Source of the DNA: Pseudomonadota bacterium
GTDB taxonomy: Bacteria > Myxococcota > Bradymonadia > UBA4248
Assembly (NCBI GenBank): GCA_017629415.1
Contig: JAGBXG010000322.1
Location: 1 to 21,238, forward strand
Length of the DNA: 21,238 nucleotides
Reading direction: 5' to 3'
Both the position numbers and the translations under genes were made by a program. Shown in pieces: positions 27 through 21,173 of the stretch. Every line of letters starts with the position of its first letter. The stretch's first letter is position 1. The notes under the pieces are model-generated. The model was not told the DNA's origin and searched no databases. It was given only the letters and a program-made list of their open reading frames with translations.

Positions 27-196
27 TGAGGGGGCAGCCGCCCCCTTCGGCGCTATTGGGCGCGGCGTATGACGTAAAACGGCATAGCCGCGCCCGCAAG
101 GCGTATGGGGGATGCATAGCAGCCCCCATAGCCGCGCGCCAATACGCGCCTACCCCCACAGCGGGGACACCCCGCAACGCCCCGTACCAACCTCGT
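27..196 (-). repeat. GC-rich palindromic element, copy 1
   Basis: A GC-rich block of about 170 bp that reads, on the minus strand, like the block at 14189-14376. Shared landmarks in the same order are a GGGCGTTGCGGGG start, GGGGGTAGGCGCGTATTG, two hairpins bounded by GCTATG and CATACGC (minus-strand modules at 101-132 and 65-88, 12 nt apart), then GCGCCG and a G-rich/C-rich hairpin at 29-46. The arms inside the two bounded hairpins are GGGG/CCCC and CGT/ACG. Short open frames across it have proline/arginine-rich translations and look like by-products of composition. Edges are approximate, because the left end may run out of the window. Confidence 0.75.
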
Positions 197-4622: not shown

Positions 4623-5846
4623 TTATTCTCCTTTTTCAAACCGTTTCAGCGCACGTTCGGCCGCCGATCTGACCCACTCACAGGCATGCGACCGACAAAC
4701 TTCCAACAATTGCTTTTCATAATGCCAAAATCCCAAATTTCCAATCACAAGACACAGATTTCTTTGCACCATGTAAGGATGCGCTCCCCCCATGGCCGAA
4801 TCCGCAAGCCTGCGACGTAACTGTCCGGCACTCATCTCGAGCATTTCCGACCACTTGAGCCCATAAATGACCGGCTCACAGCTTTCTGGATTTGTATTAT
4901 ATACATTATCACAGCGACTGTTTGCATTATATTCACAATCCACACTGCACTCAGAATTTTTTATCATCTCATCATGCGTAGACAGATTTTTATTTGGGGC
5001 ATGCGCTATGCGGCTATCGCCGTCATACGCGCCTGCAGCGTCGCTATGGCGCGGTTGCGCCATACGCGCCGCAACTTTTTGTTGCCCTCCCCTGGCACGT
5101 GGACAAGCTATCTGGCATCTGTCACATCCCCACAGACATGCGCCCATGGCCTGCGCAAATGCCTCGGGCATTTCGCCGCGATGTTGCGTCGTCCAATAAG
5201 CCAAACAACGATGGAAATCATATCCGTCTTCAGTCAAAGCCCCTGTTGGACAGGCAGCTGCACACAATCTCTGCCCTGATGCACAGCACCCACATGCCCC
5301 AGGCATCACCCCATTTGACACCTCCGTTGCGGATGGTTTATCCGATAAACGAACAATTTCTGATTCATAAGCCATCAAATCGACATCGACTAAAATTTCA
5401 CCTAATACCACATAAGACCCAAGTTCAGGATGAATCACCATTCGGTTGTGCCCTATCTTTCCTAAACCAGCTCGCACGGCCAGCTCACGTTCCAAGATCG
5501 GCGCAGAATCCACACAAATACGATAGTTTTGCACCCCATAATGCTGACAAAGCTTTTCTGCGAATGGTGTCAAGCGTTCCCGAACAATGGCATGATAGTC
5601 TCCAAAAGCACAAAAACGCGCCAAATAGGGTCTTAATACTTCTGGTAATTCAGGCATTCGCAAAGCGCAGCACACCACACATTTTGTCCCCGGCATCAAT
5701 GCATCAAATCCACATCGACAAGCCGCATTTTTGACCAAATAAGCCAAATTTTCAGGCACTCCATGAGACACAATGGCCATATATTGATCATACGTCAACA
5801 AGCTTGTTGCTGACACTATGCCAATTGCATCTATCTGACATGTCAT
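4623..5846 (-). CDS. queG: Epoxyqueuosine reductase QueG, with an internal insertion
   Basis: A cobalamin- and 4Fe-4S-dependent enzyme for the last step of queuosine synthesis in tRNA. Visible are VDSAPILERELAVRAGLGKIGHN with the catalytic-type Asp, the second cluster motif CLWGCDRCQIACP, and a C-terminal HEAT-like helical tail (YMVQRNLCLVIGNLGFW...). The first cluster reads CGCCASGQRLCAAACP: the last two cysteines have normal spacing, but the gap before them is 6 residues rather than the usual 2. At 407 aa it is longer than typical QueG (about 350-380). The extra sequence lies between the second Fe-S motif and the HEAT tail (about residues 254-330) and contains repeat copy 3 in frame. The ATG at 5846 has AAGGAG 7 nt upstream. 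The TetR gene ends 54 bp upstream on the same strand. Confidence 0.9.
   Translation of the reverse strand: MTCQIDAIGIVSATSLLTYDQYMAIVSHGVPENLAYLVKNAACRCGFDALMPGTKCVVCCALRMPELPEVLRPYLARFCAFGDYHAIVRERLTPFAEKLCQHYGVQNYRICVDSAPILERELAVRAGLGKIGHNRMVIHPELGSYVVLGEILVDVDLMAYESEIVRLSDKPSATEVSNGVMPGACGCCASGQRLCAAACPTGALTEDGYDFHRCLAYWTTQHRGEMPEAFAQAMGACLWGCDRCQIACPRARGGQQKVAARMAQPRHSDAAGAYDGDSRIAHAPNKNLSTHDEMIKNSECSVDCEYNANSRCDNVYNTNPESCEPVIYGLKWSEMLEMSAGQLRRRLADSAMGGAHPYMVQRNLCLVIGNLGFWHYEKQLLEVCRSHACEWVRSAAERALKRFEKGE
4997..5086 (+). repeat. GC-rich palindromic element, copy 3 (inside queG)
   Basis: Two hairpins bounded by GCTATG and CATACGC lie at 5005-5030 and 5043-5067, separated by 12 nt. They are followed by GCGCCG (5066-5071) and a third hairpin, GCAAC-TTTTT-GTTGC (5071-5085). 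Interior arms are CGGC/GCCG and GCGC/GCGC. The same two-hairpin unit plus GCGCCG plus third hairpin appears in copies 1 and 2, but the left GGCGCGTATTG part is missing here. From 5005 to 5067 is 63 bp, exactly 21 codons, and the queG frame reads through it as RMAQPRHSDAAGAYDGDSRIA. This matches the part of QueG that family members lack. Confidence 0.7.
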
Positions 5847-5900
5847 TCGATGACTCCTTTTACTCGAAAATCCACAGTCCCTTAAATCCAAAAATAAAAT

Positions 5901-6452
5901 TTAAACAACAGCAAAAAAATATTCTGTAATAACCTCCGGGGATTCTTTCATTTTGTGCGAAATCCACCATCTCAACGTCGTCATAAACGTCGATGCAATG
6001 TGATTTTTCCAAAAAGATTGGGGAAGGTTTTGATATTTGGGAGATTCAAACAAAGCGTAATTTCTTTCAACAAGTATCTCCAAATGAGTTCGAAAATGAT
6101 TCAGAAATAATTCATGATTTGGAGAAGATATGAGCGTTAAAATATGATTATCGTTTTTTTTGAAATGTTGAAAAAGATGCAAAAAAGTCGATTGAGAGCC
6201 AGCACATTCAAAAATATGTCTGTGTTCGTGATTTTCATCGTTTTCGACATCCAAAATATGACAAAATAATTCTTGGCATATTTCTCTGAGCAGAAAATCT
6301 TTGGTTTCAAAATGGGCATAAAAAGTGGCTCTGCCGATGTCTGCTTTTTCTATGATTTCACCCACTGTGATTTGATGATAATCTTTTTGAGACAACAGTT
6401 CCGTAAATGCTTGAAATATGGCTTCCCGAGTTTTGCGCTGGCGTCTGTCCAT
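5901..6452 (-). CDS. TetR/AcrR-family transcriptional regulator
   Basis: A 183-aa one-component repressor type. The N-terminal HTH is clear (EAIFQAFTELLSQKDYHQITVGEIIEKADIGRATFYAHFETKDFLL), followed by an all-helical ligand domain ending RWWISHKMKESPEVITEYFFAVV. The ATG at 6452 (MDRRQRKTREAIF) is chosen because TetR proteins begin just before the HTH. A GTG at 6467 or TTG at 6485 would add 5 or 11 residues, and the ribosome site is weak in all cases. It is divergent from the CDF exporter, with a 19-bp palindrome between them, so the exporter is the likely target. Base composition is clearly AT-richer than queG next door, hinting at transfer. A diverged copy of its 3' part lies at 9833-9947. 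Confidence 0.87.
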   Translation of the reverse strand: MDRRQRKTREAIFQAFTELLSQKDYHQITVGEIIEKADIGRATFYAHFETKDFLLREICQELFCHILDVENDENHEHRHIFECAGSQSTFLHLFQHFKKNDNHILTLISSPNHELFLNHFRTHLEILVERNYALFESPKYQNLPQSFWKNHIASTFMTTLRWWISHKMKESPEVITEYFFAVV

Positions 6453-6621
6453 GTCTTCACCATACACATCATGAAATATGTTCAATAATGAACGGTTAAA
6501 GAAAGATATCTATCGAGATACGTTCGTTTTTATCCATACCATTTTAAAAAATTGTTCCGTAACAAACAAATGCTCAAACCTGCATGTTGAAAGTTCTGCA
6601 CCATCTGATACGAATGAGCCA

Positions 6622-7574: not shown

Positions 7575-7708
7575 ATAAATTTTAATGAATTTGTTGTGTG
7601 AGGTTTTATATTACAATACAATAGTTTAAATATTGGTTCACAGCCCTGGCTTTATAGAGCGAGGCTGATTCTGTACTCTTACTTTTGTCATTTAGAGGGA
7701 ACGAAACG

Positions 7709-9517
7709 ATGAAGGCTAAAAACGTATTTGTTATTTCATTATTCTTAATTTGCTCATTTGGATTTGGGTGTTCTGAAGAAAATGGCAACAACAGTGGTGG
7801 TGAAGATAGTATTGAAGATAGTAATTCATCAGATGACGGAAACCATGAAAATGGTGACAACAATGAAAATGGCGACAACAATGAAAATGGCAACAACAAT
7901 GAAAATGGCAACAACAATGAAAATGGCGACAACAATGAAAATGGCGACAGCAATGAAAATGGCAACAGCAATGAAAATGGCAACAGCAATGAAAATGGCG
8001 ACAGCAATGAAAATGGCGACAGCAATGAAAATGGCGACAGCAATGAAAATGGCGACAACAATGAAAATGGTGAAAATCCCTCTGTTATTCACAAAGTTAT
8101 TATGGGAGAAGATGATATCGTTCTATTAGAATCATTTATTGAGGACGCATATGAAAAATTAGGGGTTCCTGGTGTAGCTGTGACAGTTGTTGAAAATGGT
8201 AAAACTGTATTTGCCAAGGGATTTGGTACTCGTGAATATGAAAAAGATTTGCCAATCACAGAGAAAACACTATTCCAGATTGGTTCAGTGAGTAAAATGT
8301 TTACAGGATATTTGGCCTCGGAAGCGGTACGGCAAGGGAAAATGCAGTGGGATACTCCGATTTCGACGTATTTACCTGAGTTTGTTACTGGGAGTGAAGA
8401 ATTTACAAATACAGTAACATTAAAGCAGGCTTTAAGCATGAGTTCCGGATTTCCTCGGAAAGATTTTTATTGGTTGCTTGAACATCGAACTCCAGAAGAA
8501 GGCTTGGCGCGAATGGCCACAGTGTCACCAGTTGCAGCCCCTGGTGAACAGTTTATGTACAGCAATCAGATGATTGCAAGCGGTGGATATGCTGTTGCTC
8601 GTAGTTTTACGCAGGAGGGAAGCCTTCTTGAAGCGTGGCGCAATACGATGCAGGAACAAGTTTTTGACAAACTTGATATGCAAGATACGACTTTTGATTT
8701 GTCTGAAGTGGAGACTTCAGAACATGCGATACCAACGGAATCTCAACTTTCGTATGATTTGATGGTTATGCCTATTGCTTGTGATGGTTCTGTGACGCAG
8801 TACGAACCAGCAGGAGGAATTTGGACGAATATGAATGATATTGGCAAATTTATGATTGAAGCAATATCCAATTCATCAAGTGAGCATACTGTAAGATGGG
8901 AACCCGTGATTGCTCTGGGTGATGGTCGCACAAGTTATGGTATTACTTCCATGATACAATATGCAGGTGTTCCTTTCATTTATCATGATGGTGGTATATG
9001 TGGTTTCCAATCGCGTATGGCATTGATTCCAAATTATCGATTAGGTTTTTCGATTATGACGAATTCTGGATTAGGAGCATCTGCTGTTGAAACAATTTCA
9101 CAAATGTTGATAGATATTATTTTTAAAACATCTAACGCATCGGGATATTTAGATCTATATACTGAATACCTGGAGACATCAAAAGCTCAAGCTCAGCAGT
9201 TTGTCAACAATGATGTTGAATTGACACCGGATGCAGCCTGGCTTCAAGCTTTAGTAGGTAAATATCATGATGATGATATGGGTGATATTGAGATAAGTAT
9301 AGAAGATGGTTCAGGTGTATTTGATGCTGGGGAATGGAAATCAAAATTTGGTATATACAAAGATAGTACAGAACGTTATGCGATATTAATGGATCCTCCG
9401 TTTAAGGGATTAACTTTTGAAATCATTAAAAGTGGTGAAGGTGATGTGTCAGAATTAGTTATTTATGAAGAGCAAGTTTTAATTTCCTATCAATATCATC
9501 TTAAAAAGATAGATTAA
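7709..9517 (+). CDS. Serine beta-lactamase-like lipoprotein with a repeat stalk
   Basis: A 602-aa envelope protein of the class C beta-lactamase/DD-peptidase-like serine hydrolase family. MKAKNVFVISLFLICSFGFGC is an export signal with a loose lipobox ending at Cys21. Residues 46-123 are 13 copies of a NENGDN-type hexapeptide. The hydrolase domain (about 130-470) has all three catalytic motifs: Ser193-V-S-Lys196, Tyr284-S-Asn286 and His426-D-Gly428. The C-terminal part (LVGKYHDDDMGDIEISIED...) resembles the beta-rich domain often appended to these enzymes. GAGGGA lies 8 nt before the ATG at 7709; an in-frame start at 7685 lacks such a site. Substrate may be a peptide or ester rather than an antibiotic. 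The 134-bp gap after the exporter suggests its own promoter, which I cannot place. Confidence 0.87.
   Translation: MKAKNVFVISLFLICSFGFGCSEENGNNSGGEDSIEDSNSSDDGNHENGDNNENGDNNENGNNNENGNNNENGDNNENGDSNENGNSNENGNSNENGDSNENGDSNENGDSNENGDNNENGENPSVIHKVIMGEDDIVLLESFIEDAYEKLGVPGVAVTVVENGKTVFAKGFGTREYEKDLPITEKTLFQIGSVSKMFTGYLASEAVRQGKMQWDTPISTYLPEFVTGSEEFTNTVTLKQALSMSSGFPRKDFYWLLEHRTPEEGLARMATVSPVAAPGEQFMYSNQMIASGGYAVARSFTQEGSLLEAWRNTMQEQVFDKLDMQDTTFDLSEVETSEHAIPTESQLSYDLMVMPIACDGSVTQYEPAGGIWTNMNDIGKFMIEAISNSSSEHTVRWEPVIALGDGRTSYGITSMIQYAGVPFIYHDGGICGFQSRMALIPNYRLGFSIMTNSGLGASAVETISQMLIDIIFKTSNASGYLDLYTEYLETSKAQAQQFVNNDVELTPDAAWLQALVGKYHDDDMGDIEISIEDGSGVFDAGEWKSKFGIYKDSTERYAILMDPPFKGLTFEIIKSGEGDVSELVIYEEQVLISYQYHLKKID
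7844..8077 (+). repeat. 18-bp tandem repeat, 13 units, coding
   Basis: Thirteen contiguous 18-bp units of the type AATGAAAATGGCGACAAC encode (N/H)ENG(D/N/E)(N/S). Differences are almost confined to the D/N codon and the final N/S codon, so the units are very alike and probably expanded by slippage or unequal exchange. They form an acidic, asparagine-rich, probably unstructured spacer between the lipid anchor and the hydrolase domain. The absence of stops in other frames over the array follows from the repeat and does not indicate other genes. Confidence 0.95.
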
Positions 9518-9750: not shown

Positions 9751-9832
9751 TTTAGCTTCTATTGGCATGGCAGATTGCGATGGCCAGGGCATCTGAGGCA
9801 TCGACAGGCCAGGTGAGTTGTACGCCGAGAAT
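9751..9832 (-). pseudogene. 3' fragment of a second ruvC
   Basis: On the minus strand this codes GVQLTWPVDASDALAIAICHANRS followed by TAA, matching the last 24 residues of the intact RuvC (12648-13136) with only Ser to Thr and Ile to Val changes. At DNA level I count about 8 differences in about 76 bases, mostly synonymous. The match begins at the stop codon and ends abruptly near 9830, where tetR-like sequence begins. The differences are of the kind tolerated in a working gene, so the fragment probably comes from a diverged functional ruvC and not from slow decay of a local copy. Confidence 0.85.
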
Positions 9833-9947
9833 GTCGTGATAAATGTCGATGTAATATGATTTTTCCAAAATGATTTGGGAAGGTTTTGATATTTTGGAGA
9901 TTCAAATAAAAAGAGTTCTCTCTCAACAAGTATGTTCAAATGGGTTC
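9833..9947 (-). pseudogene. 3' fragment of a second tetR
   Basis: The minus strand encodes RTHLNILVERELFLFESPKYQNLPKSFWKNHITSTFITT, clearly homologous to RTHLEILVERNYALFESPKYQNLPQSFWKNHIASTFMTT in the TetR protein at 5901-6452 (nucleotides 5977 to about 6092). The frame is intact, with no stop or frameshift. The match lacks the last 25 codons and all of the HTH part. It runs straight into the ruvC fragment on one side, and on the other overlaps the last codons of the Cys-rich lipoprotein gene, whose stop (9936-9938) lies within it. Confidence 0.85.
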
Positions 9948-12452
9948 TAATTGTACCAAATCGGCTGGACGACAATTATCGACCCAAATCGTATCATCAT
10001 CGATATCGTGGCATTGATAATCGGCAATGCATTGTCCTTCATGACATACTTCACCATATTGGCATGTCTGCTGAAGGCATTGACATCCCTCTTTTGTTAT
10101 ACATTCATACATCCATTTGTGCTCAACATCGACATCACCAAACCATTTGGCTTCTTTCTTGAGACAGTCGCGAATGAGATACTGCGAAAGATTCAACTCA
10201 GAAGAAACTTTACAATCATTTACCCATGACACTTCATTATGCTCGCAATCATCATTCGTATAATTATTTTCCATAACTATTCTCTTTTTATTTTCAACAC
10301 AACTTTTCATCGAAATATGTAATTCATGATTGATACAATAGTCTCGATATTCAATTTTTTCTTTGCCACACTGACATCCCTGAGAATTGGCACACTGTTG
10401 TAAATTGTCGCTAACAAGATATCCATCTTTGAATTCAAAAGTTTTATCTGTCAAAGAATCGATACACCCTTGTTCTGTACATATACCAGAAGGAGGACAT
10501 AATTTATCTCGGCATAAACAACCACGAACATGTTCGCATGATTCCATATCCTGCATTTTAACATCATCAGCAAAAGTAATATCGTCATTAGAAGGACAAA
10601 TCACCCCTTGTTTCAGTGAATGCCCATTACAATATTTAGACAACCATTTTCCATGATGACAATAATAGCCATCCCAATCACTGAGTCCTACATTTCCACA
10701 AAATGCTTTATCCACCTGACAAGTTGTATGTTCTGGCAATGGTTTGCCGGCACAATGACATGGCTTATGATTTAATGTACATTTCCAACGATTATTTTCA
10801 CATTGATAATCATCCCAATTAAGCAGTTTATCTTCCCCACATACAGCAACTTCTTGATAATCAACAACATCACATTTTGTACCGGCAGGAAGAAGTTTGT
10901 TTTGACAATGACGTTGACCTTCTTCTGCTTTAACAATCCATTTTCCTTCAATACAATCATGTTCTGATGCCGTTTGAGGTGAAAAACAAACATCGCCGCA
11001 ACATTGATATTCTTTATTTTTCATTGTGCACAATGCACCAGTTCGTAGTTCAACATCACCACATAAACACTTATCAGATGTACAAATCCAGGTTTTATGA
11101 TTTTCAAGGCACTCATATCCTATCAAATCACTTAACCCATTTTGATCATAACAATAGCTCTTATCATCAATACAATGGGCATTCTTTGGAATCTGCTTAT
11201 TACCACAAAGACACTTATCAGATGTACAAATCCAATTTCTTTCAAGGCTATTTTCAGCAAAACATTCATATCCAGTCAAATCGGACGGACTTTTGACTTG
11301 TTTGCAATAAATGTTTTCATGATTACAATAAGCACTCTTTGGAAGCAGCTTATTGTCACAAATACATTCTCCTGTCTGGCATTTCCAATCTCCATAATCA
11401 CATCTATAATGATCGAGATTTTGAGGGGCTTGTACCTGTTCGCTAAAGTGATATCCCCTGCATCCTATCAACTCAGTGCCATCTTTTTTACCATAGCAAT
11501 TTGCCCCAGACGGTAATTTTTTACCATTGCAAATACAGGTATTTGTATCATCACACATCCAAAGCGCATAAAAACTCTCCTGCTTTATTTGATAATGTTC
11601 AGAGACTTTGGGTTGATAAGCTAAATGATTGGAATATGCCGCCGCACATCTATTTATCGGCTCTGAAACACCTGGCTCAAACCAGACTCCCTTGCTATTG
11701 ATTGCACATTGTCCATCAATGCATGCCGCACCTTGAATACACCGCCCTGTACCACATTCACAACCACCATCACGTTCACAAATCCACATCCCAATCGTGA
11801 TTTCTTCTTCTTTACCACTATCTATACCTTCAATATCGAATTTTATATATTGATATTCTTCTATTGTTTTGGGCGGAATCTCAGAAGGACAATCTGGACA
11901 AAGATATAAACTGACTTGACGCCCAGGATGACTCGTTCCAGCCCCCTCAATACCACTTGTCAACTGACAATTCAGCGCATCATTGACAATAACACCAGCA
12001 TGATAGCAGTTATCAAATGCACAAATTTGATTTTCACCACACCGATGCGTTCCACATGCACATTCTTTCTGCTTACATAGAAAACTTCCCTCTACGCCAC
12101 CAACATAATAGCATCCACCATCGCCACATGCTTCACCAGGAGAACATTTCACACTTAGATTGGAACCATATCTGCTTATTGAACTGTCTTCACAATCACA
12201 ACCCTCTGGAGATAAACACACTTCTTTATTCATGATATTAGGATAGTCAGACACAGTTTCACATCGATTATCAATACACCTTTCATCCGCCTGACATATG
12301 ACATCACCACATTGAGAAGTTTTAAATTCCACAGATGGTACCTCTAAATTTGGGTTTGCAGGACGTTCGTCCGTTTGAACCATTTGTTTAGAAGCACAGG
12401 CGCATAACGCAATTGCAGCCCCAAATATCATATATGTTTTATGAAACTTCAT
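9936..12452 (-). CDS. Large Cys-rich lipoprotein with tandem modules
   Basis: An 838-aa protein that I cannot assign to a named family. MKFHKTYMIFGAAIALCAC is a lipoprotein signal (lipobox LCAC, Cys19). I count about 88 cysteines, roughly one in ten residues, so the protein should be disulfide-knotted outside the cytoplasm. Two module types are visible. One is short CG-x-x-x-C-x(5)-C-x(4)-C units (for example CGDVICQADERCIDNRC, CGTGRCIQGAACIDGQC, CQYGEVCHEGQC). The other is a run of about seven 45-50-residue units with W-x-C-x(4-5)-C-x-C-x(4)-LP-x-x-A-x-C...GYEC. GAGAG precedes the ATG. The last codons (LEPI and stop) lie in tetR-derived sequence, so the original C-terminus may be lost. AT-rich composition differs from ruvC next door. 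Adhesion or surface binding is only a guess. Confidence 0.85.
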   Translation of the reverse strand: MKFHKTYMIFGAAIALCACASKQMVQTDERPANPNLEVPSVEFKTSQCGDVICQADERCIDNRCETVSDYPNIMNKEVCLSPEGCDCEDSSISRYGSNLSVKCSPGEACGDGGCYYVGGVEGSFLCKQKECACGTHRCGENQICAFDNCYHAGVIVNDALNCQLTSGIEGAGTSHPGRQVSLYLCPDCPSEIPPKTIEEYQYIKFDIEGIDSGKEEEITIGMWICERDGGCECGTGRCIQGAACIDGQCAINSKGVWFEPGVSEPINRCAAAYSNHLAYQPKVSEHYQIKQESFYALWMCDDTNTCICNGKKLPSGANCYGKKDGTELIGCRGYHFSEQVQAPQNLDHYRCDYGDWKCQTGECICDNKLLPKSAYCNHENIYCKQVKSPSDLTGYECFAENSLERNWICTSDKCLCGNKQIPKNAHCIDDKSYCYDQNGLSDLIGYECLENHKTWICTSDKCLCGDVELRTGALCTMKNKEYQCCGDVCFSPQTASEHDCIEGKWIVKAEEGQRHCQNKLLPAGTKCDVVDYQEVAVCGEDKLLNWDDYQCENNRWKCTLNHKPCHCAGKPLPEHTTCQVDKAFCGNVGLSDWDGYYCHHGKWLSKYCNGHSLKQGVICPSNDDITFADDVKMQDMESCEHVRGCLCRDKLCPPSGICTEQGCIDSLTDKTFEFKDGYLVSDNLQQCANSQGCQCGKEKIEYRDYCINHELHISMKSCVENKKRIVMENNYTNDDCEHNEVSWVNDCKVSSELNLSQYLIRDCLKKEAKWFGDVDVEHKWMYECITKEGCQCLQQTCQYGEVCHEGQCIADYQCHDIDDDTIWVDNCRPADLVQLEPI
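10593..11561 (-). repeat. Cys-rich protein repeat modules (about seven)
   Basis: Residues about 298-620 of the Cys-rich lipoprotein form consecutive related units starting at Trp298, Trp357, Trp407, Trp455, Trp505, Trp556 and Trp603. The first four and the sixth carry a C-x-C pair after the tryptophan. Most have (L/I)P-x-x-(A/T)-x-C about 10 residues later and end in GYEC or DYQC-like turns. The units centred on 407 and 455 share ICTSDKCLCG exactly, so duplication inside the gene continued fairly late. Confidence 0.75.
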
Positions 12453-12560: not shown

Positions 12561-12647
12561 CATTGCTTCAAAAACATCAACTCTATTTTAAGCTTTGGGA
12601 CAATCCAGTGCCATCATTTGAGGCAATCTTCCAAACCTTTGTCATAT

Positions 12648-13136
12648 TCAGCTTCTATTGGCATGGCATATCGCAATGGCCAGGGCATCTGAGGCATCGA
12701 TAGGCCATGAGAGCTGTACCCCGAGAAGGATACGGACCATATCAGCGACTTGAGTTTTTTCGGCGTGCCCGTATGAGGTGACGCTTTTTTTAACGTCTGT
12801 AGGTTTATATTCGTAGAGTGGGAGGCCAAATCGTGCGCAAGCAACGATAGCGACACCGCGTGCATGTCCGAGTTTGATGGCGGCATCGGCGAATTTTTGG
12901 TGAAAGATGCCTTCAAAGGCAGCGACATCGGGTTGTTTTTCTTCGAGATATGCGGTGAGAAAGGCATCGATCATGAGGAGTCTTTCGGTGAACGGTGCGT
13001 TTCCGAGGACGAGTCTGTTGGCTTCGAGGTATTTAAGTTTATTGCCTGATTTTTCGATGAGTCCGTAGCCCATGAATCTTGAGCCGGGGTCAATACCGAG
13101 AATTTTGATGGGCTGATGATGTGAAGGCAAAGGCAT
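12648..13136 (-). CDS. ruvC: Holliday junction endonuclease RuvC
   Basis: A 162-aa RNase H-fold resolvase that nicks Holliday junctions symmetrically with RuvAB. All four acidic catalytic residues are visible: Asp16 in GIDPGS, Glu75 in AFEGIF, and Asp147 and Asp150 in IDASDALA. The basic HARGVAIVACA helix and YKPTDVKKSVTSYGHAEKTQV segment are typical of the family. Length is close to E. coli RuvC (173 aa) and the protein appears complete. No Shine-Dalgarno is evident before the ATG at 13136. It lies downstream of yebC, as in many bacteria, but a strong terminator separates the two and ruvAB are not in the window. A diverged copy of its last 24 codons lies at 9751-9832. Confidence 0.95.
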   Translation of the reverse strand: MPLPSHHQPIKILGIDPGSRFMGYGLIEKSGNKLKYLEANRLVLGNAPFTERLLMIDAFLTAYLEEKQPDVAAFEGIFHQKFADAAIKLGHARGVAIVACARFGLPLYEYKPTDVKKSVTSYGHAEKTQVADMVRILLGVQLSWPIDASDALAIAICHANRS

Positions 13137-14188: not shown

Positions 14189-14376
14189 TTGCGGGGGCGT
14201 TGCGGGGGCGGCAGCCCCTGCATTGGGGGTAGGCGCGTATTGTCGCGGGCTATGCCGGTCTTTCGGTCCGAAATTTTTCGTCCCTTCAGCCCGTCATACG
14301 CCCTGCGTGCGCGAGCTATGCCGGTACCCGGCATACGCCGCGCAAAAGCGCCGCAGGGGGCATTGCCCCCTGCCAG
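14189..14376 (+). repeat. GC-rich palindromic element, copy 2
   Basis: This block matches copy 1 (27-196) in opposite orientation. Order on the plus strand: GGGCGTTGCGGGG, GGGGGTAGGCGCGTATTG, then GCTATG...CATACGC at 14249-14301 (long loop, CGG/CCG arms) and at 14315-14338 (CCGG-TAC-CCGG), 13 nt apart. These are followed by GCGCCG and a 9+3+9 hairpin at 14353-14373 (GCAGGGGGC / GCCCCCTGC). It is far richer in GC than the flanking sequence and lies in the gap between divergent yebC and the HEAT-type lipoprotein, about 65 bp upstream of the latter's promoter. Confidence 0.8.
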
Positions 14377-18857: not shown

Positions 18858-20870
18858 TTACCAACGTGTTACGGTAGGTTTAAAGCTGAGTTTTTCGAGA
18901 GTTTCGACGGATTCTACGACTTCAGACCATTCGTATTGTTCGAGGTTTTGATAGACGGCTTCAGGAATCTTTGTTCTGAGGATGAGATTTCTGTGTTCTT
19001 TGTCGATGTTCCAGTCAGCAATGGCATCATCTGACATGCCAAAGAATCGGCGTGCAGCGGCGTATGACATTCCTAAATCTACGAAGCTGCCGACTGGGGC
19101 ATTGGGATCTAAATTGGTGATATAAATGGAGATATACCCTTGTCCTTCATGTACGATTTCAAAAACGCGCGTTTGTGAGGGATAATCGACGACGGAGGCA
19201 AGCATAACTTCCCAGTAACCTCGATGTCCTTGAACATAGAGTGTGGAGTCATTGTTGTGGCCATGCCCCGTGATATGCAAGACAACGCCACCATATGAAG
19301 CCAAAAGTTCCTGGAATCTCGTTTGTGAAACTTCGCCACCGAATTTATCTGTGCCATGATGCGACTGCAAAATGACGAGTTCATTTTTAGATTTAGCATC
19401 TGCAATTTGATTTTTAACCCATTCAAACTGCTCTGCAGTCATATTGGCTTCAGAGAACTGTCCGCTGTTGGTATCGAGAGAGATCAAACGAATGGGACGA
19501 TCAGGAATGGGATATGTAGAATAATATCCCCAGCCTTTAGCCATGATTTCGGGATCAAGCCCATGCCCTATTGGGAAACCAGGTGCATCGTAAAACTTTT
19601 GCAATGTTTCGACTTTGGTCATCAACCTGCGGTCAGGATCAGCAGGAGTTGTTCCGGTGGTAACAATGGCAGCATCCGGTGATGCACCGTCCTGAAATCC
19701 ATTTTGATAGCCATCGCGGTAATGATGTTCGGCGATAATAGGCACATAATCGAACAGATCGACAACAGTATCCCCAGTACATGCAGCCTGAATTTTGTCA
19801 TCGAAGGGTGTAAAGCCCATATAGAGCATGTCATGATTACCGATAGCCGGATACCATGGAATATTGCCTAATCCGTTGGAATAGAACGGATCATTGAAAT
19901 CATTATTGGGGCCTGGAACGGGATCATCGTCAATGCCTGTATCTGGGTTGAGTACGCCGCCGCCCATCATGCGCAAGAACCAAGCATTTTCATTCACCTG
20001 GGCATTATCAGCGATATCGCCTGTGACAAGCGCGAAATCAAACGGACGTGAACTGATATCTGAGATACGACGTGCCGTTTGCACGTGCAAATCAAACATA
20101 TGTGTGGAGAATATTCCCTGCGGACGATAAGCACTGGCCGTAACATAGGGTGCATAAGTCACACCTTCCATGCGGCATGGGCTTTCTTCATCGATGATTT
20201 GCGGATCTGAAATCTGCCAGAAATACGCAATACTTTGCCCTTTATGACTGATATCCGGGTCGGTATTGCGCAACAACTGTTCGCGCAGGATCCACGGTTC
20301 CCCTTCAACATTCTCGATGCCAAGACCATATTGTTCAAACTTATCTTTATCGCTGGGCAGCAGATCATGTGAAGCGATGAGTTCTTTGACGCGTTCAGCA
20401 CTATAACGGCTGTTCCCAATACGCGGCCGATGAGCAATCTGCAGTGTTGTATAGGGTGCATAAGTCATTGGCAGGATTTGCACACCGTCAACATCAGCAG
20501 TGATAGGTGAATCGTCATCGGGTTTGACTTCAGGGATAACATCGCCGGGTTGGTCATCACCGGGTTGATCATCGCCGGGTTGATCATCACCGGGTTGATC
20601 ATCGCCGGGTTGGTCATCGCCGGGTTGATCACCACCGGGTTGATCACCACCGGGTTGGTCATCACCGGGTTGATCATCACCGGGTTGATCGTTCCCGGGT
20701 TGATCGTTCCCCGGTTGATCATTCCCCGGTTGATCGTTCCCAGGAACTTGAATATTAGAATCGTCATCGAAGTCGGGACGATTGAGGTTATTAGGATTAC
20801 CTACTTCGTTGCAGCCAGCGATTAAAATGCTTGCGACTATCCACAACCATGCTTTTGGGAAATATTTCAT
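18858..20870 (-). CDS. Calcineurin-like metallophosphoesterase lipoprotein with a PGDDQ stalk
   Basis: A 670-aa exported dinuclear metal phosphoesterase. MKYFPKAWLWIVASILIAGC gives a lipobox IAGC (Cys20). Residues 43-107 are 13 PG(N/D/G)DQ pentapeptides. The catalytic domain carries the five metallophosphatase blocks: DPQ (222-224, in place of the usual DxH), GDIADN (284-289), GNHD (344-347), SHHG and GHGHNN. The replacement of His by Gln in block I occurs in some relatives and does not by itself mean loss of activity. AAGGA lies 7 nt before the ATG at 20870; upstream residues in the open frame are unrelated to export. The barrel gene follows on the same strand. Substrate is unknown; the large inserts between blocks resemble secreted phosphodiesterases. 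Confidence 0.87.
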   Translation of the reverse strand: MKYFPKAWLWIVASILIAGCNEVGNPNNLNRPDFDDDSNIQVPGNDQPGNDQPGNDQPGNDQPGDDQPGDDQPGGDQPGGDQPGDDQPGDDQPGDDQPGDDQPGDDQPGDVIPEVKPDDDSPITADVDGVQILPMTYAPYTTLQIAHRPRIGNSRYSAERVKELIASHDLLPSDKDKFEQYGLGIENVEGEPWILREQLLRNTDPDISHKGQSIAYFWQISDPQIIDEESPCRMEGVTYAPYVTASAYRPQGIFSTHMFDLHVQTARRISDISSRPFDFALVTGDIADNAQVNENAWFLRMMGGGVLNPDTGIDDDPVPGPNNDFNDPFYSNGLGNIPWYPAIGNHDMLYMGFTPFDDKIQAACTGDTVVDLFDYVPIIAEHHYRDGYQNGFQDGASPDAAIVTTGTTPADPDRRLMTKVETLQKFYDAPGFPIGHGLDPEIMAKGWGYYSTYPIPDRPIRLISLDTNSGQFSEANMTAEQFEWVKNQIADAKSKNELVILQSHHGTDKFGGEVSQTRFQELLASYGGVVLHITGHGHNNDSTLYVQGHRGYWEVMLASVVDYPSQTRVFEIVHEGQGYISIYITNLDPNAPVGSFVDLGMSYAAARRFFGMSDDAIADWNIDKEHRNLILRTKIPEAVYQNLEQYEWSEVVESVETLEKLSFKPTVTRW
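20550..20744 (-). repeat. 15-bp tandem repeat, 13 units, coding
   Basis: Thirteen contiguous 15-bp units encode PG(N/D/G)DQ in the stalk of the metallophosphoesterase. Four PGNDQ, two PGDDQ, two PGGDQ and five PGDDQ units follow in that order, showing block-wise spread of variants. The position directly after the lipid anchor is the same as that of the unrelated 18-bp array in the beta-lactamase-like protein. Confidence 0.95.
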
Positions 20871-21173
20871 TTTATAATCCTTAGACTTTTTAAATATATT
20901 TATTGGAATTTTGTTATGACGCAACGCGTTAAAACCCGCGTCACACATAGACTTTCTCGGTTATCTTATAGGTGTGTTTGTTATCTCTCGCAAATTATTT
21001 TTATAAGTTTTATGTTTTTAAAAGGATGAAAACCAAACGAGAGAACATTTGCTAAATAGCAATACTCAACGCTACACAATTGAAAAAATCCAAGAAATTT
21101 TATCGCATTTATATGCCATGATGAAGCGAAATATATCTAGATATGTAGAAAAGTATTGAAATTACATCATGGC
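20871..21173. other. Upstream region of the metallophosphoesterase gene
   Basis: This is 303 bp of mostly AT-rich sequence. No gene is visible on either strand. It must carry the promoter of the phosphoesterase gene, but no clear -35/-10 pair could be chosen. A 12-bp palindrome, ATATCTAGATAT (21133-21144), is noted without function. Confidence 0.45.

Follow-up and report, generated by a model that had tools for sequence, protein, structure and literature searches.

Small DNA hairpins with a split, bulged core and variable but paired arms in a family of gut bacteria

Six short modules that begin GCTATG and end CATACGC lie in a contig of a Pseudomonadota bacterium (GenBank assembly GCA_017629415.1, contig JAGBXG010000322.1; GTDB lineage Myxococcota, Bradymonadia, UBA4248), of which we analysed positions 1 to 21,238 (the window, 21,238 nucleotides). 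What is kept constant in these hairpins, and what maintains or spreads them? An initial annotation, made from the letters of the window, had described three pairs of modules with one C bulged out of the pairing, and all six were found where it had placed them: the pattern GCTATG-N4-34-CATACGC has five matches in the window, against 0.02 expected from 100 dinucleotide shuffles, and the module at 14249-14301, whose 40-nt interior exceeds the gap limit, was matched separately. The bulged C and the paired arms also hold in the DNA folds of the three copies (z of -8.2 for copy 1, -5.1 for copy 3 and -4.9 for copy 2), none of 200 shuffles being equally stable. The features are listed here with the evidence for each.

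29..46, plus strand: G-run/C-run hairpin of an E2-type shell (fold; shell copies in relatives)
49..150, plus strand: outer hairpin of copy 1, with exact core (CTAT at 53-56, ATACG at 142-146; sequence and fold)
65..88, minus strand: hairpin module, second hairpin of copy 1 (pattern match and DNA fold)
101..132, minus strand: hairpin module, first hairpin of copy 1 (pattern match and DNA fold)
161..175, plus strand: right-hand hairpin of the long E2 shell, GCGGGG...CCCCGC (fold)
4623..5891, minus strand: queG-like ORF, its frame open across copy 2 (ORF list and alignment)
about 4869..5051, minus strand: 61-residue insert of the QueG-like protein (alignment, on which its edges depend)
5005..5030, plus strand: hairpin module, first hairpin of copy 2, within the queG-like ORF (pattern match and fold)
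5043..5067, plus strand: hairpin module, second hairpin of copy 2, within the queG-like ORF (pattern match and fold)
5071..5085, plus strand: third small hairpin 3′ of copy 2, GCAAC-TTTTT-GTTGC (fold)
14232..14352, minus strand: outer hairpin around the copy 3 modules, its core altered to CTTT / ATACG (sequence; the fold shows the outermost five pairs)
14249..14301, plus strand: hairpin module, first hairpin of copy 3, with a 40-nt interior (sequence, match and fold)
14315..14338, plus strand: hairpin module, second hairpin of copy 3 (pattern match and fold)

The outer hairpin of copy 1 encloses both modules, in reverse orientation, in its loop, and a layout resembling the nesting of copies 1 and 3 is also present in the relative G007 (L193, L189). 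G-runs and C-runs form a shell in the outer hairpins of these two copies, and this shell is found again in relatives and in one viral contig; a tail resembling the 161..175 hairpin is found in copies of G002 and in the viral contig L257. The GCGCCG and third hairpin that the initial annotation had noted after the modules are present, although in copies 1 and 3 they are part of the outer, opposite-strand element. Copy 2 lies in an ORF that we take to be queG-like. The 61-residue insert of its product is missing from all seven relatives matched (no match was obtained in an eighth genome). One end of the insert is shared with copy 2 (5005-5051); the insert extends past the copy and holds other sequence.

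Elsewhere in the window, at 9751-9950, an 89% copy of a segment of a presumably ruvC-like ORF (versus 12647-12727) is joined to an 83% copy of part of a presumably regulator-like ORF (versus 5974-6094; ORF 5901-6485), i.e., gene-fragment duplications within 7 kb. Tandem 18-nt repeats at 7773-8127 lie in the N-terminal part of what we take to be a serine-hydrolase-like lipoprotein ORF (7685-9517), and tandem 15-nt repeats at 20495-20765 lie in an ORF (18858-20948) that we assume to be metallophosphoesterase-like.

A scan with the YebC of the window yielded three close loci (86-89% identical; G001-G003), the next being at most 55% identical. These belong to MAGs of a Proteobacteria bacterium (goat omasum), an uncultured Myxococcales bacterium and a Proteobacteria bacterium (water buffalo rectum), which have 205, 181 and 244 exact-box matches, respectively, against 7, 12 and 15 for the reversed pattern. 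Exact-box matches occur in all eight family genomes examined (29-317 each, 1514 in total); a ninth genome of the order has 2, against 5 for the control. With a pattern in which four outer pairs were fixed, each of the eight family genomes gave 45-295 matches, and among the other 274 genomes of the phylum that were sampled three had one match each and the rest none. Overall, this family of gut bacteria carries dozens to hundreds of small core hairpins per genome.

The part kept constant was determined with an unbiased scan of 706,506 bases for all hairpins whose 3′ side carries a single unpaired base with five or more pairs to either side of it. TAT/ATA(C) occurs in 64 of the 215 single-bulge hairpins, at least 62 of the 64 having a C-G pair beside the bulge, and the pair that follows is G-C in 48, C-G in 12 and T-A in 2. 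The constancy attributed to the boxes GCTATG/CATACGC is thus real, although the kept part is smaller than they are: it is a nine-base core split across both sides of the stem, C-TAT / ATA-(C bulge)-G. A search with this core returned 132 modules, compared with 0-9 for each of 18 distinct control cores, and the density of modules is about 210 and 250 per Mb in two relatives. It was upheld in a sixth genome tested afterwards (G004), with 203 modules per Mb. The main set consists of 517 modules in 1.83 Mb (five genomes plus the window), a total that includes a 20-kb all-N stretch (L205 of G002). Module detection demanded the exact core, save in one comparison, in which 523 exact-core modules stood against 34 with one mismatch, the latter having to reach a higher stem score; a control core gave 8 one-mismatch modules. 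Unlike in ordinary decaying repeats, one-mismatch cores are therefore rare, which suggests host maintenance or quick turnover.

The arms are variable and nevertheless paired. When outer pairing was the sole criterion of choice (n=242), the first four inner pairs are Watson-Crick in 91, 78, 79 and 77% of modules, against 33-40% with shuffled partners (33% for the first pair), and pair 5 in 45% against 27%; as many as 224 of the 242 inner arms are distinct. Conversely, when modules were chosen by their inner pairing only (n=386), Watson-Crick pairing at outer positions 1-6 is 67-92%, against 33-62%. The variable but paired inner arms described in the initial annotation are therefore confirmed, and the arms outside the boxes, beyond what it had claimed, vary and pair likewise. 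With pairing so far above that of shuffled partners, the hairpins form a structured repeat family in which structure rather than arm sequence is kept. The alternative named at the outset, that further copies would be lacking or have unpaired arms, is contradicted by the 29-317 matches per genome and by the pairing of their arms.

Is it then an RNA or a DNA structure that is kept? Conservation of a bulge between helices that covary is typical of RNA motifs, and the initial annotation had offered a family of structured RNA as one possibility; such an RNA would act in trans or in mRNA. The loops point elsewhere. Of 222 triloops, 82 read T-N-C and 5 read G-N-A on the core strand, with C-G as the closing pair; of 123 four-base loops, 33 read T-NN-C and none G-NN-A, whereas hairpins outside the elements in the same DNA are symmetric (35/36 for triloops, 22/25 for four-base loops). 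The two ends of the loop go together: T..C ends number 95 against 65.5 if the ends were independent, and 36 against 24.5. In the main set CTNCG occurs in 158 and CGNAG in 11 of the 517 modules; the rule is weak in G004 (9 and 1, respectively, in 71 modules). With T-N-C and T-NN-C on the core strand, the complement strand bears C-GNA-G and C-GNNA-G loops. GNNA is a stable DNA loop analogous to GNA. The triloop d(GNA) closed by C-G is itself on record as stable in DNA (PMC5815330). By a hand count from the loop list, about half of the four-base loops violate the GNRA rule of RNA. On the other side, the CTNCGG loops, present in 77 of the 517 modules, would also form UNCG tetraloops in RNA. This strand-specific rule suggests folded DNA better than RNA. 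As, in addition, no Rfam family matches the window at gathering thresholds and no clear gene-strand bias is seen (below), we regard a structured RNA as highly improbable.

Another explanation would be intrinsic transcription terminators whose stems bear a conserved core. Genes were called with a simple custom script, and on these calls only 12 of 339 clusters lie inside genes; the sites are nearer to gene ends than to gene starts, and 67 elements lie between convergent genes compared with 34 between divergent ones, the intergenic lengths being nearly equal. On the core strand, 69 of the 339 clusters have a T-run after the element and 3 have an A-run before it; TTTT comes after 31 of the 83 elements that point along co-directional genes and after 17 of the 72 that point the other way. 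The T-runs, the nearness to gene ends and the common CTNCGG loops speak for terminators. However, gene direction is not kept (84 elements between co-directional genes face with them and 73 against), T-runs are found between divergent genes as well (13/35), and they precede elements about equally often (61). Hence T-runs accompany part of the copies, without the general association of hairpin and T-run in the gene direction that defines an intrinsic terminator, and we consider this explanation very unlikely.

The copies are dispersed. For instance, a double hairpin of G005 is present at two places, 93% identical over 89 nt and with unrelated flanks, and no element was detected between the genes flanking the site of window copy 3 (14249) in G001, G002 or G003. 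Across genomes, the corresponding interval contained an element in 9 of 19 comparisons (reciprocals counted). Three viral contigs (IMG/VR) carry elements: L173 has one double, L256 two doubles face-to-face and L257 one E2 element. Two other viral matches were set aside, as they look like chance matches inside GC-rich genes. No target-site duplication was seen by eye at the compared copies. The dispersed copies, element-free sites and viral copies partly support the mobile palindrome of the initial annotation, but a RAYT, one of the mobilisers that it had proposed, is not supported (below). The viral contigs may, as a separate matter, link phages to this host family. Furthermore, of 81 contig starts in the genomes, 9 lie no farther than 200 nt from a module, where the site density predicts about 3.1; this may reflect assembly breaks or rearrangement at elements.

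In the window the modules always come in pairs, as had been claimed, but this does not extend to the family, where we count 212 single, 145 double and 5 triple clusters. In each of the 150 clusters of two or three hairpins these face the same way, and the step from ATACG to the next CTAT is 14 nt in 78 of 155 cases and 12-18 nt in 148. There are also some close inverted pairs (<200 nt): 14 of the +- type and 1 of the -+ type. The position profile of doubles is T-rich at about 10-19 nt before and 8-17 nt after the element, then falls to background. A second class, E2, has the shell GGGGG..CCCCC..GCGG-core-CCGC..CCCCC; one such shell, a single position of which was allowed to vary, was counted 104 times in G007, 47 times in G006 and 18 times in G003; the other genomes have at most 6 each, and G001 has none. 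In 34 sampled shell copies of G007, which were selected for their G-runs and C-runs, mean identity is 0.83 in the shell, 0.58 in the inner part and 0.47 in the flank (0.44 for random paired hairpins), and the inner sequences are distinct in 30 of the 34. Even among the 111 G007 pairs with shell identity of at least 0.90, mean inner identity is 0.62, with one identical pair. Many shell-similar, seemingly recent copies thus differ at the tip, yet the tip still pairs. On the other hand, among the matches listed, inner sequences recur with the same shell (one G007 sequence at least six times, two others at least four times), so that tips are copied too, which argues against rewriting at every step. 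Within doubles the two inner hairpins are identical in 7 of 145 cases (0.72 expected) and reverse-complementary in 1 (0.09 expected); this suggests copying between neighbours, as by template switching or tandem duplication.

Some inner palindromes of G007 E2 elements contain a second internal loop (TC/TC), and some E2 tips of this genome carry a motif GTGCTC...TGCGCGC found in more than one genome; the tip therefore has sub-families of its own. Another family of palindromes, (A)GACGTTC-n-GAACGTC(T) with its variants, stands directly before the core hairpin in several copies (L118, L149, L196, L204 and others).

The order of orientations along the chromosome brings in another explanation, namely that these are DNA architecture or recombination sites kept by the host, where a chromosomal protein would bind the folded or cruciform core, with meaningful orientation and neighbours acting as inverted pairs. 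Adjacent sites 200-8000 nt apart are in opposite orientation in 149 of 196 cases and in the same orientation in 47 (five genomes; one pair is from the window), none of 5000 permutations being as extreme. Neighbours at lag 2 have the same orientation in 110 of 178 cases, and the trend is seen in all five genomes taken singly and also between element classes. The seldom mutated cores fit host-kept sites as well. However, in G004, taken afterwards as a test, opposite orientation is found in 17 of 26 cases within 8 kb and 20 of 38 over all distances, leaving 9 and 18, respectively, in the same orientation, and alternation is therefore unconfirmed there. Moreover, the sites are not reliably shared (the 9 of 19 comparisons above), and orientation is unlinked to GC skew (175 vs 184), so that a replication-strand bias was dismissed. 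We consider host-kept sites rather unlikely, and the alternation a strong lead, not a settled result.

Several possible causes of the alternation were tried and rejected. Gene direction gives no account of it, given the 84 and 73 elements facing with and against genes. For gene cassettes bounded by inverted sites, ortholog-like matches were found for 31 of 201 genes in +- intervals and 53 of 271 in -+ intervals, with no clear difference; the coding fraction of these intervals is 0.68 and 0.78 and their GC content 0.512 and 0.537, respectively. Hidden degenerate sites between same-orientation neighbours are too few. If adjacent elements were parent and offspring, they should be alike, but the signal is weak (10.54 shared 6-mers against 9.38 in random pairs, the largest of 300 draws being 10.53). 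Deletion of direct repeats depending on distance only does not fit either, since same orientation at 4-8 kb is found in 30 of 101 adjacent pairs and in 35 of 57 pairs with one site between. By our own reckoning, a rule under which each new copy is inverted relative to its nearest neighbour would settle at about one third same-oriented, whereas about one quarter is observed. A more speculative reading, which we hold to be rather improbable, combines bulged-core protein sites in a folded single DNA strand, hairpins freely rewritten by a palindrome-making process and alternating orientation into a polarised lattice of near-unique, address-like hairpins serving local inverted copying, recombination or folding.

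If the elements move, which enzyme could move them? Y1_Tnp, the domain of RAYTs, is found in six of the eight family genomes but has no match in G003 or G007, which hold 244 and 206 matches of the element (three genomes bear MAG titles, and no completeness is given for any). An element lies within 300 nt of 6 or 7 of 14 Y1 loci, as judged by reading, and of 408 of 915 genes. There is thus no clear enrichment beside Y1 genes, and a RAYT as mobiliser is not supported; few of the Y1 proteins of these genomes, we presume, resemble RAYTs. Reverse transcriptase was rejected too, PF00078 being present in two of the eight carrying genomes and absent from six. With these two profiles no mobilising gene was found in the family genomes.

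The same evidence bears on whether these are true REPs of the GTAG/CGTC type moved by RAYT. As in REPs, there are many small bulged palindromes, mainly intergenic and near gene 3′ ends, and 30 of 63 E2 modules have GTAG on the complement strand beside the hairpin. However, most modules have no unpaired end tag: within 14 nt of the 517 modules, the complement and core strands show GTAG 31 and 2 times and CGTC 16 and 45 times, respectively, and the reversed words 24, 19, 18 and 79 times. The doubles, moreover, are direct and do not form the unit of two inverted hairpins that characterises BIMEs and REPINs. Together with the lack of Y1_Tnp matches in the two copy-rich genomes, this makes true REPs of that type unlikely.

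We lean, with slightly better than even confidence, towards non-autonomous, REP-like mobile DNA palindromes that act as a folded single DNA strand and have a new recognition design. A putative protein of this bacterial family would read the nine-base core, with its bulge, between two helices and would need the shape of the helix, not its sequence, on either side, so that the core would serve for recognition and the remainder as a scaffold. In E. coli REPs the bulge matters and the sequence of the upper stem-loop does not (reported in PMC8266576 and PMC3733652); TnpAREP, as described in PMC8266576, requires the unpaired bulge and an upper stem-loop whose sequence and loop can be swapped; in a related design, arms of free sequence are therefore plausible. 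Copies would spread as units, either as a double hairpin with T-rich flanks or as a hairpin in its G-run/C-run shell, and the inner palindrome would be rewritten during or after copying, probably by fold-back or template-switch synthesis. Arms made in this way pair by construction, leaving core and shell kept and the tip often different. The core, the paired variable arms, the dispersed copies and element-free sites, the viral copies, the tip more variable than its shell and the one-strand loop rule are observed; single-strand action, a dedicated protein and template switching are what we infer from these patterns. Counting against this reading are the negative outcome for a mobilising gene with the two profiles, the inner sequences that recur with one shell, the rarity of one-mismatch cores, the weak loop rule in G004, and the T-runs and UNCG-capable loops of part of the copies.

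We found no description of this core among the titles and abstract openings that searches of open-access PMC papers listed. The results point to a small DNA element, mobile or site-marking, of a new kind. Repeats are usually found by sequence likeness; here, in most copies, little more than nine split letters and pairing is kept, so that ordinary repeat finders would miss many copies. The many natural variants in each genome amount to a map of what a would-be hairpin-binding protein tolerates, and constant shells around changing palindromes to a natural record of palindrome rewriting. Alternating orientation, if real, wants an explanation, and none was found in the open literature examined.

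Several known systems resemble these elements in part. Rickettsia palindromic elements place a palindrome inside an ORF that stays open, as the queG-like gene of the window does through copy 2; here, only the 12 of 339 clusters lie inside called genes, and arm sequence is not conserved. The double-hairpin elements of fungal mitochondria are likewise dispersed intergenic hairpins that differ between relatives. The same is true of the RHE of sponge mitochondria (PMC2800124), but these are elements of organelle genomes, and the abstract of that report mentions no split bulged core with free arms. Compared with integron attC sites, the elements are scattered single sites and not cassette arrays. 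AAC/GTT boxes define attC sites, and here they are nearly lacking (10 and 5 of 517 modules in the two orders). Shared with attC, as described in PMC6393395, are a folded single-strand site, extra-helical bases, a variable terminal structure and strand choice. REPs, BIMEs and REPINs with their RAYT (TnpAREP) are also short palindromes that number in the hundreds, lie mostly between genes and close to gene 3′ ends, and are often dimeric and in some cases bulged. Unlike BIMEs and REPINs, the doubles described here are direct, mostly with 14 nt from core to core, and two copy-rich genomes have no Y1_Tnp match; unlike REPs, most copies have no adjoining tag, the constant part lies within the stem and the inner arms are mostly unique. 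Relative to REPs, recognition would have shifted from a flanking tag to a bulged core inside the stem.
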